From positions 4,712,001 to 4,776,000 of the forward strand of contig NZ_CP128187.1 of assembly GCF_035207705.1 (NCBI RefSeq): 64,000 nucleotides of DNA. Direction: 5' to 3'. Below, piece after piece: positions 3,709 to 9,387 of the stretch. The stretch is from Maribacter sp. BPC-D8 (lineage in GTDB: Bacteria; Bacteroidota; Bacteroidia; Flavobacteriales; Flavobacteriaceae). The notes beneath the pieces were generated by a model. It did not search any database. It was not told the DNA's origin and saw nothing but the letters and a program-made list of their open reading frames with translations. The position numbers and the translations under genes are program-made. Position 1 is the first letter of the stretch; every line of letters begins with the position of its first letter.

Positions 3709-5028
3709 ATGAGCTTACCAACAGAAAGCACCCCGGTTGTAGAAAATAAAAAGAACATAAAATGGCTTCAACAACTTAAAGAAGAAAGTTGGGAAGCAGA
3801 ATTGCTAGTCTCTGCAATTGCCATTTTTGGTACGTTTCAGTTATTTGGTTTTATAGAGTGGGTTACTAATAAATTAATAGACTTATTGCCTATTGAACAG
3901 CATATTTATGGTTACATAATAACTATTATAGGGTTGTTGGCTATTAGTGTTCTAGTGTCCATGTTTGTTATTCATTTTATTTTGCGAGCTTATTGGATTG
4001 GTTTGGTAGGCTTGAATTCAGTTTTTCCAGATTATAGTATTGAGGATAGTGCATATTCTAAAATTTATACAGAGAAGATTTTGGCTATACTGCCAAAGCA
4101 AGAAGATACTATACAGAAAGTAGATGAATTATGCAGTGTGATTTTTTCTGTGGCATTCACTATTCTTTTAATCTATTCATATATGTCTTTGTTTTTAAGT
4201 ATTTACATGTTGATATATAATTTATTATTAGATTATGTACCAAGTTCTATACTTTTAATACCTCTTTTTCTAATCTTTGGCCTTGTTGTATTTCAAACGA
4301 TTTTTGGTATTGTAGGAAATTTGAAAAAGTTCAAAAACAATGTTGGTGTTCAAACATGGATGTTCAAAGTTGTTAGATTGGTGTCAATGATTACTTACGG
4401 TCCTTTATATCGTAATTTACTTCAGGTGACTATGGTATTTGGGTCTAATTTCAAAAAGAAAAAATCATTAGTTTATCTTGTATTAATGTTTTTTGCATCA
4501 GGTATGTTTTTAACTTTTGTTAAAATTACTGACACGAATATTTTTCATTTAGTATTCCCAAAAGATCATGATGTTAGTCTTATGTATTTAAGTTATTACA
4601 GTGATCAAAATTCTGATGAATCGTTTTTGTTGACTCCTCAAATACAATCAGATATTATTGAAGATAATACCGTTAAATTATTTATTCCAGTGTTTCATCA
4701 TGAACGTAATTATCAAAAAAATAGTTGCGGTGAATTTAATGATGACGAAAGTTTAAGTAGTGATGAAAATAGGGCGAATAGTCGTAAATATCATCTAGAC
4801 TGCTATGATAAATACCATAGTATTAAGTTAAATGGTAAAGTTGTCAATATTGATTTTCTCAAAAAAGATCATGCCGTATCTGAGCAATTTGGTATTGTAG
4901 GTTTTATAGATAAAGAGTTCTTGCAGAAAGGTGAGAATACTTTAGTGGTAACAAAAAAGCTAGGCGATGTAAAAGAGTTTACGTGGACTATTCCCTTTTA
5001 TTACCAGCCCAATACAGGTTCAAAGTAA
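3709..5028 (+). CDS. Uncharacterised multi-pass membrane protein
   Basis: I do not recognise this 439-residue protein. Hydrophobic segments lie at about residues 32-50, 67-100, 143-173, 178-203 and 252-272, giving at least five membrane passes. A ~165-residue hydrophilic C-terminal domain follows, with a charged stretch (ECNDDESLSSDEN-like, around 345-360). The TM1 start (ESWEAELLVSAIAIFGTFQLF) and a glycine-rich TM2 are the most distinctive parts. It lies 71 bp after the serine hydrolase and 152 bp before the aromatic operon leader, so it is probably a single-gene unit. No function is proposed. Confidence 0.75.
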   Translation: MSLPTESTPVVENKKNIKWLQQLKEESWEAELLVSAIAIFGTFQLFGFIEWVTNKLIDLLPIEQHIYGYIITIIGLLAISVLVSMFVIHFILRAYWIGLVGLNSVFPDYSIEDSAYSKIYTEKILAILPKQEDTIQKVDELCSVIFSVAFTILLIYSYMSLFLSIYMLIYNLLLDYVPSSILLIPLFLIFGLVVFQTIFGIVGNLKKFKNNVGVQTWMFKVVRLVSMITYGPLYRNLLQVTMVFGSNFKKKKSLVYLVLMFFASGMFLTFVKITDTNIFHLVFPKDHDVSLMYLSYYSDQNSDESFLLTPQIQSDIIEDNTVKLFIPVFHHERNYQKNSCGEFNDDESLSSDENRANSRKYHLDCYDKYHSIKLNGKVVNIDFLKKDHAVSEQFGIVGFIDKEFLQKGENTLVVTKKLGDVKEFTWTIPFYYQPNTGSK

Positions 5029-5180
5029 AAAGTAGTTTTGTTGGTCAAATTATTGTTTGATTCAATTTTTAACACAAAACCTTCGCTTTTTGAGATAGAA
5101 ATTGATTTTTTTAAAAAAATAAAAAGGAAAACAACCATTTTTAAATATAATTACTACATTAGCCAAAGTTTACAAGCACA

Positions 5181-5252
5181 ATGACAAAACAATATTTCTG
5201 GAACGGTTTTTATTTTTACTTCTTTTTTAAGAGAGGTGCGGGACTGTTGTAG
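5181..5252 (+). CDS. Phe/Tyr/Trp-rich leader peptide of the aromatic amino acid operon
   Basis: A 23-codon open frame (ATG 5181, TAG 5250-5252) encodes a peptide whose residues 5-16 read YFWNGFYFYFFF: six Phe, three Tyr and one Trp within twelve residues. The tail is KRGAGLL. It lies about 120 bp before pheA, immediately ahead of an intrinsic terminator. Such a run of codons for the end-products of the downstream genes is the hallmark of a transcription-attenuation leader: scarce charged tRNA-Phe or tRNA-Tyr stalls the ribosome. No Shine-Dalgarno sequence is seen, as is usual in this phylum. The peptide itself probably has no further function. Confidence 0.88.
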   Translation: MTKQYFWNGFYFYFFFKRGAGLL

Positions 5253-5309
5253 TATATTTTAAATATAAAATAGAATCTAAGTTCCGATATATATCGGAAC
5301 TTTTTTTTT
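5239..5309 (+). promoter_or_regulatory. Attenuator: antiterminator/terminator switch before pheA
   Basis: The terminator stem GTTCCGATAT/ATATCGGAAC (5281-5300, extended by AA/TT) is a perfect hairpin followed by nine T (5301-5309). The segment CGGGACT (5239-5245), in the last codons of the leader peptide, can pair with AGTTCCG (5280-5286), the 5' half of the terminator, giving seven pairs including one G-U. A ribosome stalled on the Phe/Tyr run (5208-5228) leaves 5239-5245 free, so the antiterminator forms and the operon is read. A ribosome reaching the stop at 5250 covers it, and the terminator forms. The pairing is seen in the sequence; the mechanism is inferred. Confidence 0.82.
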
Positions 5310-5327
5310 GTTCAAAAATTAAAATTA

Positions 5328-5373: not shown

Positions 5374-6201
5374 ATGAGTTTAAAAATAGCCATACAGGGA
5401 ATTAAAGGAAGTAACCATCATCAGGTAGCAAAAGATTATTTTGGTGATGATATCGAGTTGGTAGAATGTCTTTCTTTCGATGCTTTGGTTGACAAGTTAT
5501 TGTCTAATGAAGCGGATCAAGGGGTTATGGCTATCGAGAATAGCATTGCGGGTTCGATAATACCGAATTACGCATTGGTGAATCATAATAACTTGAATAT
5601 TATAGGTGAGTATTACTTAAATATCCATCATAATTTAATGATGTTGAAGGGGCAGAAAATTGAAGATATAACAGAGGTCAGTTCTCACCCAATGGCATTG
5701 TTGCAGTGTAAAGAATATTTTAGACAATATCCGCATATAAAACTGGTAGAAGATGTAGATACTGCCGAGACAGCAAAGCGCATACAAGAGCAAAAGTTAA
5801 AGCATGTAGCGGCTATTGCACCAAATGTTGCAGCAGAATTATATGGTTTGGACATCGTAGCGAACGACATACAGACGATACAAAATAACGCTACTCGTTT
5901 TATCATTGTAAAGACAAAAAACAATGTGTTGCCAGAGGCTGATATTACAAAGGCTTCACTAAGGTTCATAACCGACCATAAAAGGGGGAGTTTAGCAGCT
6001 GTGCTTAATGTTATGAGCGATTGTAGATTGAATTTGACAAAAATACAGTCGTTACCAGTAATTGAAACACCATGGAAATATGCATTTTTTGTGGATGTTA
6101 CTTTTACTGATTATGCAGATTTTACTAAGGCTAAAAGTCTATTGAACATCATGGCAGAAGACTTTAAAGTTTTGGGTGAATATAAAAATGTAAGACAATG
6201 A
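5374..6201 (+). CDS. pheA: Prephenate dehydratase
   Basis: This 275-residue monofunctional enzyme converts prephenate to phenylpyruvate in phenylalanine synthesis. The catalytic domain (about 1-185) has IENSIAGSI at 54-62 and the active-site TRF motif at 174-176 (NNATRFIIV). A C-terminal ACT domain (about 195-270) should bind Phe. Its regulatory motifs read GSLA (205-208) and QSLP (225-228) instead of the GALV and ESRP of E. coli PheA. No chorismate mutase domain is attached; that activity is supplied by the last gene of the operon. It is the first gene after the attenuator and overlaps the aminotransferase by 4 bp. Confidence 0.95.
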   Translation: MSLKIAIQGIKGSNHHQVAKDYFGDDIELVECLSFDALVDKLLSNEADQGVMAIENSIAGSIIPNYALVNHNNLNIIGEYYLNIHHNLMMLKGQKIEDITEVSSHPMALLQCKEYFRQYPHIKLVEDVDTAETAKRIQEQKLKHVAAIAPNVAAELYGLDIVANDIQTIQNNATRFIIVKTKNNVLPEADITKASLRFITDHKRGSLAAVLNVMSDCRLNLTKIQSLPVIETPWKYAFFVDVTFTDYADFTKAKSLLNIMAEDFKVLGEYKNVRQ

Positions 6202-7346
6202 TACGTACTGCCGACAGGTTAAATACCATACAGGAATACTACTTCTCAAAAAAGCTGAGAGAGGTACGCGGCTTAATGGCGCAAGGTAAACCAATCATAA
6301 ATATGGGTATTGGTAGTCCGGATCTAACTCCGTCTCAAGAAGTATTGAATGCAATACAGAGCGCGGTATTAGAAAGCGGTGCGCATCAATATCAAAGTTA
6401 TCAAGGGTTACCTCAGTTAAGAGGTGCAATTGCTAATTTTTACAAGAAGAGGTTTAATGTTGATGCCGATCCTGAGTCTGAGATTTTACCATTAATGGGC
6501 TCAAAAGAAGGTATAATGCATATTAGCCTTTCTTTTTTGAATGAAGGCGATGAGGTTTTAATTCCTAATCCGGGATACCCAACATACACTTCAGTTACTA
6601 ATTTGGTGGGCGCAGTGCCTACATACTATGACTTGACTGAAGAAAATGGCTGGTTTCCAGATTTAGAAGCATTGGCAAAACAAGATTTATCTAAGGTAAA
6701 GATCATGTGGTTGAGTTACCCACATATGCCAACAGGTGCTTCGGCAACTAAAGAGCAGTTTGTGAAAATAGTCGACTTTGCAAAGCAGCATGATATTCTG
6801 TTAGTAAACGACAATCCGTACAGTTTTGTTTTAAATAACGAACCGGCGAGTATTTTGAGTATACCGAATGCAAAAGAGGTGTGTTTAGAGTTGAATTCTT
6901 TGAGCAAAACCTTTAACATGGCCGGTTGGCGCGTAGGTTTTGTATTAGGTAGCGAAGAGCATATTAATGCTATTTTAAAGGTAAAGAGCAATATGGACTC
7001 TGGTATGTTCTACGGAATTCAAAAAGGAGCCATAGCAGCATTAGAAAGTACCGATGAATGGTTCGAGAACTTGAATGCCGTATATAGTGAACGTAGAGAG
7101 TTGATCTTTGAATTGGCAGACACGCTTGGGTGTACATATGATAGAAATGCCGTTGGCTTGTTTGTATGGGCAAAATTACCAGAAGGCAGTGTGTCATCAG
7201 AAGAATTTATAGATAATGTATTATATACAAAAGATTTGTTCATTACCCCAGGTACTATATTTGGTAGTAATGGTGAAGGCTATATTCGCTTTTCGCTTTG
7301 TATAACAAAAGACAAAATAAAAGAAGCAATTAAAAGATTTAATTAA
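6198..7346 (+). CDS. PLP-dependent class I/II aminotransferase (probable aromatic aminotransferase)
   Basis: A fold-type I aminotransferase of 382 residues. Lys237 in SLSKTFNMAGWRVGF is the Schiff-base lysine; Asp205 and Tyr208 (VNDNPYSF) contact the cofactor; YIRFSLC near the C-terminus holds the carboxylate-binding Arg. The usual YPNNPTG box reads YPHMPTG (174-180), so the Asn that normally hydrogen-bonds the PLP hydroxyl is Met. Its place between pheA and tyrA, translationally coupled to pheA by a 4-bp overlap, points to transamination of phenylpyruvate and/or 4-hydroxyphenylpyruvate, the final step to Phe and Tyr. Sequence alone would also allow an aspartate or LL-DAP type substrate. Confidence 0.88.
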   Translation: MIRTADRLNTIQEYYFSKKLREVRGLMAQGKPIINMGIGSPDLTPSQEVLNAIQSAVLESGAHQYQSYQGLPQLRGAIANFYKKRFNVDADPESEILPLMGSKEGIMHISLSFLNEGDEVLIPNPGYPTYTSVTNLVGAVPTYYDLTEENGWFPDLEALAKQDLSKVKIMWLSYPHMPTGASATKEQFVKIVDFAKQHDILLVNDNPYSFVLNNEPASILSIPNAKEVCLELNSLSKTFNMAGWRVGFVLGSEEHINAILKVKSNMDSGMFYGIQKGAIAALESTDEWFENLNAVYSERRELIFELADTLGCTYDRNAVGLFVWAKLPEGSVSSEEFIDNVLYTKDLFITPGTIFGSNGEGYIRFSLCITKDKIKEAIKRFN

Positions 7347-7378: not shown

Positions 7379-8245
7379 ATGAATGTATTTGTAATAGGTA
7401 TCGGTTTAATAGGAGGTTCTTTAGCGAAAGACATAAAGTCGGCAGTCGACAATGTTACTGTTTATGGCATAGAATCTAATGAAGCAAATTTAGCTGAGGC
7501 ATTGTCTTTGGGTATAATCGATAAGACGGCAACCTATCAAGACTTACAATTAGCAGACATGGTCATTGTTAGTATACCTGTTGATGTTATGGTTACAGAG
7601 CTTCCGGTAATATTAGATGCTGTTCATGAAGACTGTGTAGTTTTTGATGTAGGATCGACCAAATCTTTAATCTGCAAGGTTTTAGAGAATCATCCGAAGA
7701 GAAGAAACTTTTTAGCTTGTCACCCAATTGCAGGAACAGAGTTTTCTGGTCCGTCAGCAGCGATAACTAATTTGTTCAAAGACAAAACGAATATTATTTG
7801 CGAGGTAGAGTTAACTGCATTTAAGCTTCAAGAAATCGCTTTGAAAGTTTTTCAAGCAATTGGTATGAGAATACGATATATGAACCCTGTGGCTCATGAT
7901 AAGCACATTGCTTATGTTTCTCATTTATCGCACATAAGTGCATTTATGTTGGGTAAGACAGTAATAGAGAAAGAGAAGAACGAGCGCGATATTTTTGATA
8001 TGGCGGGTAGTGGGTTTAGAAGTACCGTACGTTTGGCAAAGAGTTCGCCAGCCATGTGGACACCAATTTTTAGACAGAATAAAGAGAATGTAGTCGAGAC
8101 ATTAGAAGAGTACATTCAAAATCTTATGGCATTTAAAGAAATGTTACAGAAAGATGATTACGAGGGCATTTATAATGAAATGAACAATACGAATAAGATT
8201 AAAGGAATATTAAAAAGAAATACCGTTAAACAAGAAATAGAATAA
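7379..8245 (+). CDS. tyrA: Prephenate dehydrogenase
   Basis: This 288-residue enzyme oxidatively decarboxylates prephenate to 4-hydroxyphenylpyruvate for tyrosine synthesis. The N-terminal Rossmann motif is GIGLIGGSLA (about 7-16), HPIAGTEFSGP starts at residue 115, and YVSHLSHISAF carries the conserved histidine region. No ACT domain is present, so feedback control may act through the attenuator and the DAHP synthase instead. It is third in the aromatic operon, 32 bp after the aminotransferase and 6 bp before the DAHP synthase gene. Confidence 0.94.
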   Translation: MNVFVIGIGLIGGSLAKDIKSAVDNVTVYGIESNEANLAEALSLGIIDKTATYQDLQLADMVIVSIPVDVMVTELPVILDAVHEDCVVFDVGSTKSLICKVLENHPKRRNFLACHPIAGTEFSGPSAAITNLFKDKTNIICEVELTAFKLQEIALKVFQAIGMRIRYMNPVAHDKHIAYVSHLSHISAFMLGKTVIEKEKNERDIFDMAGSGFRSTVRLAKSSPAMWTPIFRQNKENVVETLEEYIQNLMAFKEMLQKDDYEGIYNEMNNTNKIKGILKRNTVKQEIE

Positions 8246-8251
8246 GTAAAA

Positions 8252-9334
8252 ATGGAAAATTCAAAACAAATGAGAACATGGTTGGATGATTTACACCTAG
8301 ACCATCCACTAGTAATAGCAGGGCCATGTAGTGCGGAAACAGAGGAACAAGTGTTAGGTATAGCACGTTCTCTAAAAGATACCGATGTAAATTATTACAG
8401 AGCAGGTATTTGGAAACCTCGTACTCGCCCAGGAAATTTTGAAGGTGTAGGCGCTTTAGGTCTTAAATGGCTTCAAAAGGTAAAGGCTGAAACAGGTATG
8501 AAAACTGCAACAGAGGTTGCAAACCGTGCGCATGTTGAGTTAGCATTAGAACATGATATTGATTTATTATGGATCGGAGCAAGATCAACTGTTAGTCCGT
8601 TTATCATGCAAGAATTGGCTGATGCCTTAAAAGGTACCGATAAGATTGTATTGGTGAAGAATCCGGTAAATCCAGATTTAGCTTTATGGTTAGGTGGTAT
8701 CGAAAGATTGCATACTGCAGGTATAAAGAAATTAGGCGCAATACACAGAGGGTTCTCAACGTATGAGAAAACAAAGTATAGAAATATACCAGAGTGGCAA
8801 ATGGCGATTGACTTTAAAAACAAATTTCCAGATTTACCATTGATCAACGATCCATCGCATATTACAGGTAAGCGTGATATGATTTTTGATGTATCGCAAA
8901 CGGCTTTAGATTTGAATTTTGACGGACTGATGATTGAAACTCACCATGATCCAGATAACGCATGGAGTGATGCTGCACAGCAGGTTACACCAGAGAAATT
9001 GATTCAAATCATGAGAGATCTTAAAATTAGAAAAGAAAGTGATCCAGAAGCAGAATACAATTCAGAATTAAGTAACCTAAGAGCTCAAATTGATGTTATT
9101 GACAATCAAATAATAGAGACATTAGGTAAAAGAATGAAAGTATCTGACGGTATTGGAGCACTTAAAAAGCAAAAAAACGTTGCGGTTCTTCAGTCTAACA
9201 GATGGAATCAAATTCTAGGTGCAATGATTTTAGAAGGGGAAAGTAAAGGACTAAGTGAAGAGTTTGTTCTTCGTATGTTCAAAGCTATTCACCAAGAGTC
9301 TATCAATCACCAAGAGAAGATAGTAAACGCTTAA
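8252..9334 (+). CDS. Bifunctional 3-deoxy-7-phosphoheptulonate synthase/chorismate mutase
   Basis: This 360-residue fusion supplies the first step of the shikimate pathway and the branch step chorismate to prephenate. Residues 15-255 are a DAHP synthase of the small (KDO8P-synthase-like) type: AGPCSAE, WKPRTRPGNFEG, the RGF motif in IHRGFSTYE, and DPSHITGKR. Residues 262-355 form an AroQ-type chorismate mutase helix bundle (LRAQIDVIDNQIIETLGKRMKVS...IHQESINHQ). The fusion is common in Bacteroidota, where the mutase part often acts as a feedback sensor for prephenate. It ends the operon; an intrinsic terminator follows 25 bp after the stop. Confidence 0.95.
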   Translation: MENSKQMRTWLDDLHLDHPLVIAGPCSAETEEQVLGIARSLKDTDVNYYRAGIWKPRTRPGNFEGVGALGLKWLQKVKAETGMKTATEVANRAHVELALEHDIDLLWIGARSTVSPFIMQELADALKGTDKIVLVKNPVNPDLALWLGGIERLHTAGIKKLGAIHRGFSTYEKTKYRNIPEWQMAIDFKNKFPDLPLINDPSHITGKRDMIFDVSQTALDLNFDGLMIETHHDPDNAWSDAAQQVTPEKLIQIMRDLKIRKESDPEAEYNSELSNLRAQIDVIDNQIIETLGKRMKVSDGIGALKKQKNVAVLQSNRWNQILGAMILEGESKGLSEEFVLRMFKAIHQESINHQEKIVNA

Positions 9335-9358
9335 GATTAGCTTAACGTTATAAAAATA

Positions 9359-9387
9359 AAACATCCGTATTATGCGGATGTTTTTTT
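9359..9387 (+). terminator. Intrinsic terminator of the aromatic operon
   Basis: A hairpin with stem ACATCCG/CGGATGT (9361-9367 with 9375-9381) is followed by seven T. It closes the pheA to DAHP synthase operon. Confidence 0.9.

Follow-up and report, generated by a model that had tools for sequence, protein, structure and literature searches.

A predicted leader-peptide attenuator with mixed phenylalanine and tyrosine codons before the pheA operon of Maribacter and other Bacteroidota

An operon that makes both phenylalanine and tyrosine is preceded, in Maribacter sp. BPC-D8, by a short open reading frame (ORF) crowded with aromatic codons, and the question raised by this locus is whether that ORF senses the supply of the operon's products, and of which of them. 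The window, i.e., the whole stretch of DNA that was analysed, is 64 kb long. Sequence comparison and folding models indicate that the element is, very probably, a classical ribosome-mediated attenuator sensing charged tRNA-Phe and tRNA-Tyr together. The first-pass annotation had described the downstream genes as pheA, an aminotransferase, tyrA and the first shikimate step, and domain matches bore this out:

5374..6201, + strand: pheA, prephenate dehydratase (PF00800), gene 1 of the operon
6198..7346, + strand: class I/II aminotransferase (PF00155)
7379..8245, + strand: tyrA, prephenate dehydrogenase (NF006307, above cut-off)
8252..9334, + strand: DAHP synthase-chorismate mutase fusion (PF00793 and PF01817)
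9358..9384, + strand: terminator-like hairpin closing the operon

Between them, the four genes supply the first step of the shikimate pathway, chorismate mutase and the Phe and Tyr branches; the remaining steps of the shikimate pathway are absent from the pheA operon. Directly upstream on the same strand, 3709–5028 encodes a protein of 439 aa for which neither Pfam nor NCBIfam gave a match at E ≤ 0.001. The following elements were recognized between that gene and pheA:

5155..5162, + strand: candidate Bacteroidota -7 promoter box TACATTAG, with 5/6 fixed bases of TAnnTTTG
5181..5252, + strand: leader ORF MTKQYFWNGFYFYFFFKRGAGLL, 23 codons plus TAG, identified by direct reading and by conservation
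Codons 5-7 and 10-16 of the leader ORF, + strand: control codons
5202..5210, + strand: strand 1, predicted partner of strand 2 at 5240-5248, with moderate support
5217-5225:5230-5238, + strand: predicted inner helix of the 1:2 structure
5239..5245, + strand: strand 2, CGGGACT, 5' half of the antiterminator within the last leader codons, covarying with strand 3
5279..5309, + strand: intrinsic terminator (3:4), a 10-bp hairpin (5279-5302) and T9 (5301-5309)
5280..5286, + strand: strand 3, AGTTCCG, 3' half of the antiterminator and part of the 5' arm of the terminator, covarying with strand 2

The 23-codon ORF with ten Phe, Tyr or Trp codons among residues 5-16, as first noted, can be read directly from the sequence; the aromatic residues of MTKQYFWNGFYFYFFFKRGAGLL occupy positions 5, 6, 7, 10, 11, 12, 13, 14, 15 and 16. 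The hairpin and T9 said to follow the leader are likewise present, the hairpin consisting of AAGTTCCGAT-ATAT-ATCGGAACTT, and the region 5260-5310 folded with z = -4.67 relative to shuffles. The leader peptide had no match in NCBIfam.

A related pheA was confirmed at 174 loci, and the best 80 of these were used to assess conservation; the closest pheA found was 97% identical (Maribacter sp. 1_MG-2023). The order pheA-aminotransferase-tyrA-aroG was present in 78 of the 80; the other two were contigs of 3.1–3.5 kb. A leader of the Maribacter type (MTKQYFWNGFYFYFFFKRGxGLL) was present in 79/80 loci, starting about 127 to 248 nt upstream of pheA, and a terminator was called behind it in all 79, so that the F/Y codons and terminator expected at the same place in relatives were found there; the sole exception (L051) had just 155 nt of upstream sequence. 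When 299 genomes of the family were searched with a profile HMM of the peptide, 55 matched at E ≤ 1e-3 and 77 at E ≤ 0.1; the best 30 matches, when examined as loci, all lay immediately upstream of pheA. This HMM failed outside the Maribacter-type clade, where a search based on pheA succeeded.

For the wider survey a detector was used that required six or more aromatic residues within 12 codons of a short ORF, with a hairpin and T-run behind it. It called 165 of 212 loci (some of which repeat a genome), corresponding to 151 of 198 distinct upstream sequences. Grouping by k-mers divided the 151 sequences into 44 clusters, one of which contained 98 sequences; such groups do not amount to a phylogeny, and hence are not fully independent. 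As a control, 60 homologous upstream regions were each subjected to five dinucleotide shuffles. These 300 shuffles yielded a single call, a weak one with fewer than eight aromatic codons; among the 151 distinct real calls, 141 had eight or more. The 556 gene starts of the 80 loci that were left after removal of 73 pheA-leader regions gave five calls. Each of these was once more the pheA leader, at three pheA starts that had passed the filter and at two later starts in the same frame; no device was called at any other gene start of those tested. The combination of leader and terminator therefore exceeds chance. That a terminator belonging to the upstream gene had come to lie beside a random ORF might be imagined, given that 3709-5028 is on the same strand, ends 152 nt before the leader ORF and has no terminator of its own among those detected; however, this explanation is refuted by the conservation in 79/80 loci, by both controls and by the covariation described below (0/10,000), and its probability is negligible.

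Elsewhere in the Flavobacteriaceae, the device was present in 17/17 genomes with a pheA match, and in other families of the same order (f2, f3, f8, f11 and f14) it was present in 7/10 genomes with a similar pheA. Two loci (L129 and L130) had the same layout but five aromatic codons, while L137 had nothing. Two further families of the order, f4 and f15, gave no calls among the seven and two loci examined, respectively (19 genomes with a pheA match in each). Across the other orders of the class, 24/39 examined loci were called (44 genomes with a pheA match), and three of the 15 uncalled loci of the same class (L157, L172 and L206) had ORFs with 8, 11 and 9 aromatic residues and no called terminator. 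In other classes of the phylum, 4/23 examined loci were called (103 genomes with a pheA match), these 23 having been selected by hand, beginning with the closest pheA and continuing with one or two loci per family. Of all uncalled loci, 28/47 had a pheA no more than 39% identical to the query, and only one locus among the 29 in this range was called (L210). Other loci were uncalled despite a closer pheA (e.g., L156, L158, L160, L164, L165 and L204), and in L141 and L142 coding-like sequence without a leader ran right up to pheA. PF00800 was matched in 33 of 119 genomes of the class, and the survey speaks only for genomes in which pheA was found.

The pheA of family f4 was diverged (L193-L199, 29–34% identity, 0/7 with a called leader). 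This family may have lost or replaced pheA and its control, although other families of the order keep the leader. In 18 longer stretches from further genomes, the order pheA-aminotransferase-tyrA-aroG was observed in 11, and other or partial arrangements in seven. Four stretches (L253, L258, L260 and L262) had a leader with Tyr codons and yet no tyrA match (E ≤ 1e-8), while L266 and L267 had no called leader and nevertheless kept the order pheA-aminotransferase-tyrA.

The candidate promoter was evaluated across the same clusters. The -7 box consensus TAnnTTTG, positioned at -12 to -5, was taken from PMC9723704, and on this basis the box at 5155..5162 would place the transcription start near 5167. 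Of 44 cluster representatives, 20 had a perfect box no more than 50 nt from the leader ATG, where 2.1 were expected from shuffles. The box at 5155..5162 is, by itself, weak evidence of a promoter because 5/6 boxes of its kind barely exceeded the shuffle expectation (15/44 against 12.8).

An attenuator further requires an alternative to the terminator. It had been proposed that 5239-5245 pairs with 5280-5286, which gives seven pairs, one of them G-U, and that this pairing should covary among relatives. Permutation across clusters upheld both points. Leader and terminator were chosen without pairing in the score, and 43 of the 44 clusters were usable; an earlier version that let pairing into the terminator score made identical choices in all 43 and gave the same result. 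The summed 2:3 score was 501, compared with 351 ± 14 for permuted partners, and was reached in 0/10,000 permutations; a cluster's own pairing exceeded the mean of its swapped pairings in 40/43 cases. When restricted to the 34 clusters with pheA below 60% identity, the result was 396 against 291 ± 12 (0/10,000), whereas a control region upstream of the ATG paired no better than permuted sequences (4,441/10,000).

The letters of the two strands, CGGGACT/AGTCCCG in the 80-locus set, were replaced elsewhere by AGGATTGT/ACAATCCT, GAGGCTTT/AAAGCCTC, AGCGGTC/GACCGCT, GCCGGG/CCCGGC and GAGAACT/AGTTCTC. Within the Maribacter-type group, 23 distinct strand 2/3 types also beat permutation (27/10,000), and compensatory changes were seen in L004 (CGGAACT/AGTTCCG) and L056 (CAGGACT/AGTCCTG). 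The covariation argues for an antiterminator with its 5' half in the leader region and mutually exclusive with the terminator. In three leaders of the same family (L117, L122 and L124), a stop right after the aromatic run shortens the peptide and the sequence of strand 2 is kept downstream; because it is kept beyond these early stops, strand 2 appears to matter as RNA. A further hairpin, in the linker of the antiterminator (5255-5272 when the window was folded), was considered, but its conservation found no support across the clade, the mean z being -0.62 relative to simple letter shuffles, with 27/88 sequences below -1.

A structured 5' region with a terminator upstream of an operon would also be expected of a metabolite-binding riboswitch or a T-box, neither of which involves translation of a leader. 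However, no Rfam family, leaders, riboswitches and T-box included, was matched at gathering threshold in the window, and the ORF behaves as a coding sequence: deletions in L036, L038 and L059 removed whole codons, and aromatic codons varied most at their third positions (mean entropy of 0.07, 0.27 and 0.44 for positions 1, 2 and 3 among 83 distinct leaders). A riboswitch or T-box is accordingly considered highly improbable, and the ribosome-mediated attenuator is retained.

The relationship between ribosome position and pairing was explored with a folding model, in which the ribosome was assumed to mask the RNA from approximately 18 nt upstream to 11 nt downstream of the first nucleotide in the A-site codon. 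With RNA made to 5290, stalls at seven of the ten aromatic codons (5, 6, 7, 10, 13, 14 and 16) gave P(2:3) of 0.97–0.99, while a ribosome at codon 17, codon 18 or the stop masked strand 2 and gave P(2:3) = 0. Over 42 clusters, P(2:3) was above 0.5 at the last aromatic codon in 39 and below 0.5 three codons later in 41; the mean was 0.92 for aromatic codons and 0.84 for the last of these, then 0.48, 0.16, 0.04 and 0.00 for the next four. From this stepwise fall it follows that the aromatic run ends about where stalling would lose its effect. The same spacing was evident in the sequences themselves: 141 of the 151 leaders had a 2:3 score of at least 9, and in 131 of these 7–12 nt separated the end of the last aromatic codon from the start of strand 2. 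In three clusters (L155, L171 and L182) the last aromatic codon left strand 2 unfreed, and a ribosome at the stop masked strand 2 in 31/42 clusters and not in the other 11, some of which have late stops. According to the model, therefore, a stall at the control codons would free strand 2 and a ribosome at the end of the leader would cover it.

In the classical attenuation model, the outcome is decided before strand 4 exists, through the kinetic logic of ribosome and RNA polymerase. The same must apply here if the folding model is correct, because the full-length RNA at equilibrium preferred the terminator in every state tested, stalled states included (P(3:4) of 0.95–0.97); the switch would then be kinetic, its outcome being set while strand 4 is unmade. 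In the absence of a ribosome, RNA to 5290 favoured 2:3 (0.71 here and 0.75 on average over 42 clusters), so that a leader that is not translated would be leaky rather than off.

From the leader, its Phe and Tyr content, the terminator, the covarying 2:3 pairing and the spacing, we infer translation, stalling, termination and a response to amino acids in the following order. RNA polymerase would start near 5167, with a ribosome translating the 23-codon leader close behind. Where Phe-tRNA or Tyr-tRNA is scarce, the ribosome would stall at one of codons 5-16, leaving strand 2 (5239-5245) free to pair with strand 3 (5280-5286) while strand 4 has yet to be transcribed; with 2:3 formed there would be no terminator, and pheA, the aminotransferase, tyrA and the DAHP synthase gene would be transcribed. 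With both tRNAs plentiful, the ribosome would reach codon 17 or beyond and cover strand 2, and the terminator at 5279-5309 would halt transcription. Starvation for either Phe or Tyr should thus open the operon.

A simple two-state switch between 2:3 and 3:4, as first proposed, is compatible with these results, but the accompanying claim that it needs no 1:2 hairpin goes beyond them. Strand 2 is also predicted to pair with codons 8-10 (5202-5210:5240-5248), and the minimum-energy structure predicted for the entire leader contains this 1:2 pairing together with its inner helix at 5217-5225:5230-5238. For pair counts in the clade, 100 rows were taken; L136, placed in the clade by k-mers but with no recognised arm, was dropped, and the others collapsed to 88 distinct sequences. 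The counts were made on anchored arms because in the MAFFT alignment the terminator arms of different groups were offset by one column. The 1:2 cells were paired in 94–95%, compared with 37–70% when slid. Across clusters, 1:2 probability was 0.64, against 0.55 in synonymous-codon shuffles; it exceeded the shuffles in 32/42 clusters and fell within the top 5% in 10/42. U-rich Phe and Tyr codons opposite a G-rich strand 2 yield much of this signal for nothing. The third base of codons 13 and 14 (TAC TTC, 5217-5222) was nearly fixed (entropy of 0.16 and 0), as was that of codon 15 (0.09), while Phe codons 10 and 12 had values of 0.78 and 0.83; the near-invariant C at codons 13 and 14 perhaps reflects constraint at the RNA level from the inner helix. 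A 1:2 helix is thus predicted with moderate support.

These helices bear on another interpretation, i.e., that the leader is a regulatory arrest peptide, in which an effector-bound nascent chain, and not the supply of charged tRNA, stalls the ribosome. Several non-aromatic residues were indeed retained among 83 Maribacter-type leaders (N8 in 76, G9 in 73, G21 in 81 and L22 in 79). However, the codons for N8, G9 and the tail lie in strands 1 and 2, so that RNA pairing can explain why these residues are kept, and the only features common to the clusters are F/Y density, spacing to strand 2, and pairing. An arrest peptide is very unlikely for these reasons, and sensing of charged tRNA is preferred.

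It remains to consider which tRNAs are sensed. At least two Phe and at least two Tyr codons were present in the leaders of 44/44 clusters and in 150 of 151 distinct leaders, which supports the original suggestion that one peptide senses several amino acids; Trp codons occurred in the leaders of 16/44 clusters. On average, a cluster had 5.0 F, 3.6 Y and 0.36 W among its control residues. The predominance of Phe, which was also the last aromatic codon in 26/44 clusters, would suit an attenuator in which Phe starvation alone derepresses the operon and the Tyr and Trp codons are passive. Tyr made up 42% of F+Y in leaders and 45% in eight ordinary proteins of the window; since these shares are close, the argument for Tyr is one of retention, and not of enrichment over Phe. 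Besides the two or more Tyr codons in every cluster, Tyr was the last aromatic residue in 14/44, and was kept at positions 5 and 13 in 77 and 79, respectively, of 83 Maribacter-type leaders. Stalls at Tyr codons 5 and 13 also had the same folding outcome as stalls at Phe codons, and Tyr is likewise made by the operon. Sensing of Phe alone is improbable on this evidence, though less so than an arrest peptide, and a two-input sensor of Phe and Tyr is the best reading of the leader sequences.

Among known leaders, those of Enterobacteria carry the gene names pheL, trpL and hisL. Earlier predictions of attenuators in the phylum Bacteroidota are likely, because the abstract of an attenuation survey by Vitreschak et al. 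in 2004 reportedly mentions Bacteroidetes/Chlorobi; another such survey is said to be that of Lopatovskaya et al. in 2010. Leader-peptide attenuators of Enterobacteria include those of trp, his, leu, thr, ilvGMEDA, ilvBN and pheA (PMC1183508). The Maribacter leader shares with these a short ORF rich in control codons, an antiterminator strand in the end of the leader and a terminator before the first structural gene. It differs in having a mixed run of Phe and Tyr codons before one operon that makes both, a promoter box of Bacteroidota type, no Shine-Dalgarno sequence evident by eye and no match to an Rfam leader family.

The closest precedent is a 2021 study of Flavobacterium psychrophilum (PMC9723704), which reported clues to leader-peptide attenuation as well as a 5' element conserved upstream of pheA. 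That element, described from F. psychrophilum and other Flavobacteriaceae, concerns the same gene in the same family, with attenuation suggested for amino-acid operons, and is very probably the same as the Maribacter leader. The passages of that article considered here give no peptide, codons, pairing or role for Tyr in the case of pheA. The first-pass annotation had considered a combined Phe and Tyr sensor in a Bacteroidota operon worth documenting, leader attenuation being best known in Proteobacteria; the existence of the element was already in print. Relative to those passages of PMC9723704, the new aspects are the Phe and Tyr codon logic, covariation, geometry and a wider distribution. 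Other elements are more distant. The uORFC-13-1 motif of Acholeplasma aroF (PMC8632094) similarly combines a U-run uORF with a terminator before an aromatic-pathway gene, but it belongs to another phylum and another gene, and its description there states at least one Phe codon and no Tyr. The leu/phe leader of Lactococcus lactis (RF01743) and the Actinobacteria pheA motif (both PMC2864571) are tied by name to Phe genes and come from other phyla; RF01743 had no match in the window, and the table in PMC2864571 gives no Rfam number for the Actinobacteria motif. Leader-peptide-like sORFs in B. thetaiotaomicron are mentioned in general terms in PMC7366714.

In a broader interpretation, to which we assign an even chance, the pheA-aminotransferase-tyrA-DAHP synthase operon has been under the control of a two-input attenuator responding to Phe or Tyr starvation from early in the Bacteroidia onwards, perhaps since the ancestor of the Bacteroidota, with strand 2 beginning where a ribosome stalled at the last aromatic codon ends. 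The leader would then also be a natural sensor of coupling, because such an attenuator can work only with a ribosome closely following RNA polymerase. One review (PMC10931766) states that widespread uncoupling is predicted for Gram-positives and that Bacteroidota initiate translation without Shine-Dalgarno pairing; in a limited literature search that included sections of this review, no statement was found on transcription-translation coupling in Bacteroidota. If correct, this interpretation would provide a conserved, natural sign of coupled transcription and translation, at least at leaders, in a phylum without Shine-Dalgarno initiation, and a ready-made reporter for ribosomes that trail RNA polymerase closely. 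The regulation of amino-acid synthesis is, in our judgement, little studied in Bacteroidota, and covariation, spacing and codon content now provide sequence evidence for a combined Phe and Tyr attenuator in many of those sampled.

Two further leaders were observed elsewhere in the Maribacter sp. BPC-D8 genome. A His-rich peptide, MKNRTTHHHFHIHAQAR, followed by a hairpin, lies just before hisG (L248, C1:1384000-1385300, minus strand), and is a second candidate for a classical attenuator. The other, MKNLIANTWWWNNLRKTS, contains three consecutive Trp codons and precedes a hairpin and a trpE-like gene (PF00425; L249, C1:158900-160700, minus strand). The tails of both hairpins are T-rich but imperfect. 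The his and trp leaders support the view of a genome that probably uses ribosome-mediated attenuation, and the pheA leader may be able to do without Trp because Trp has a sensor of its own.
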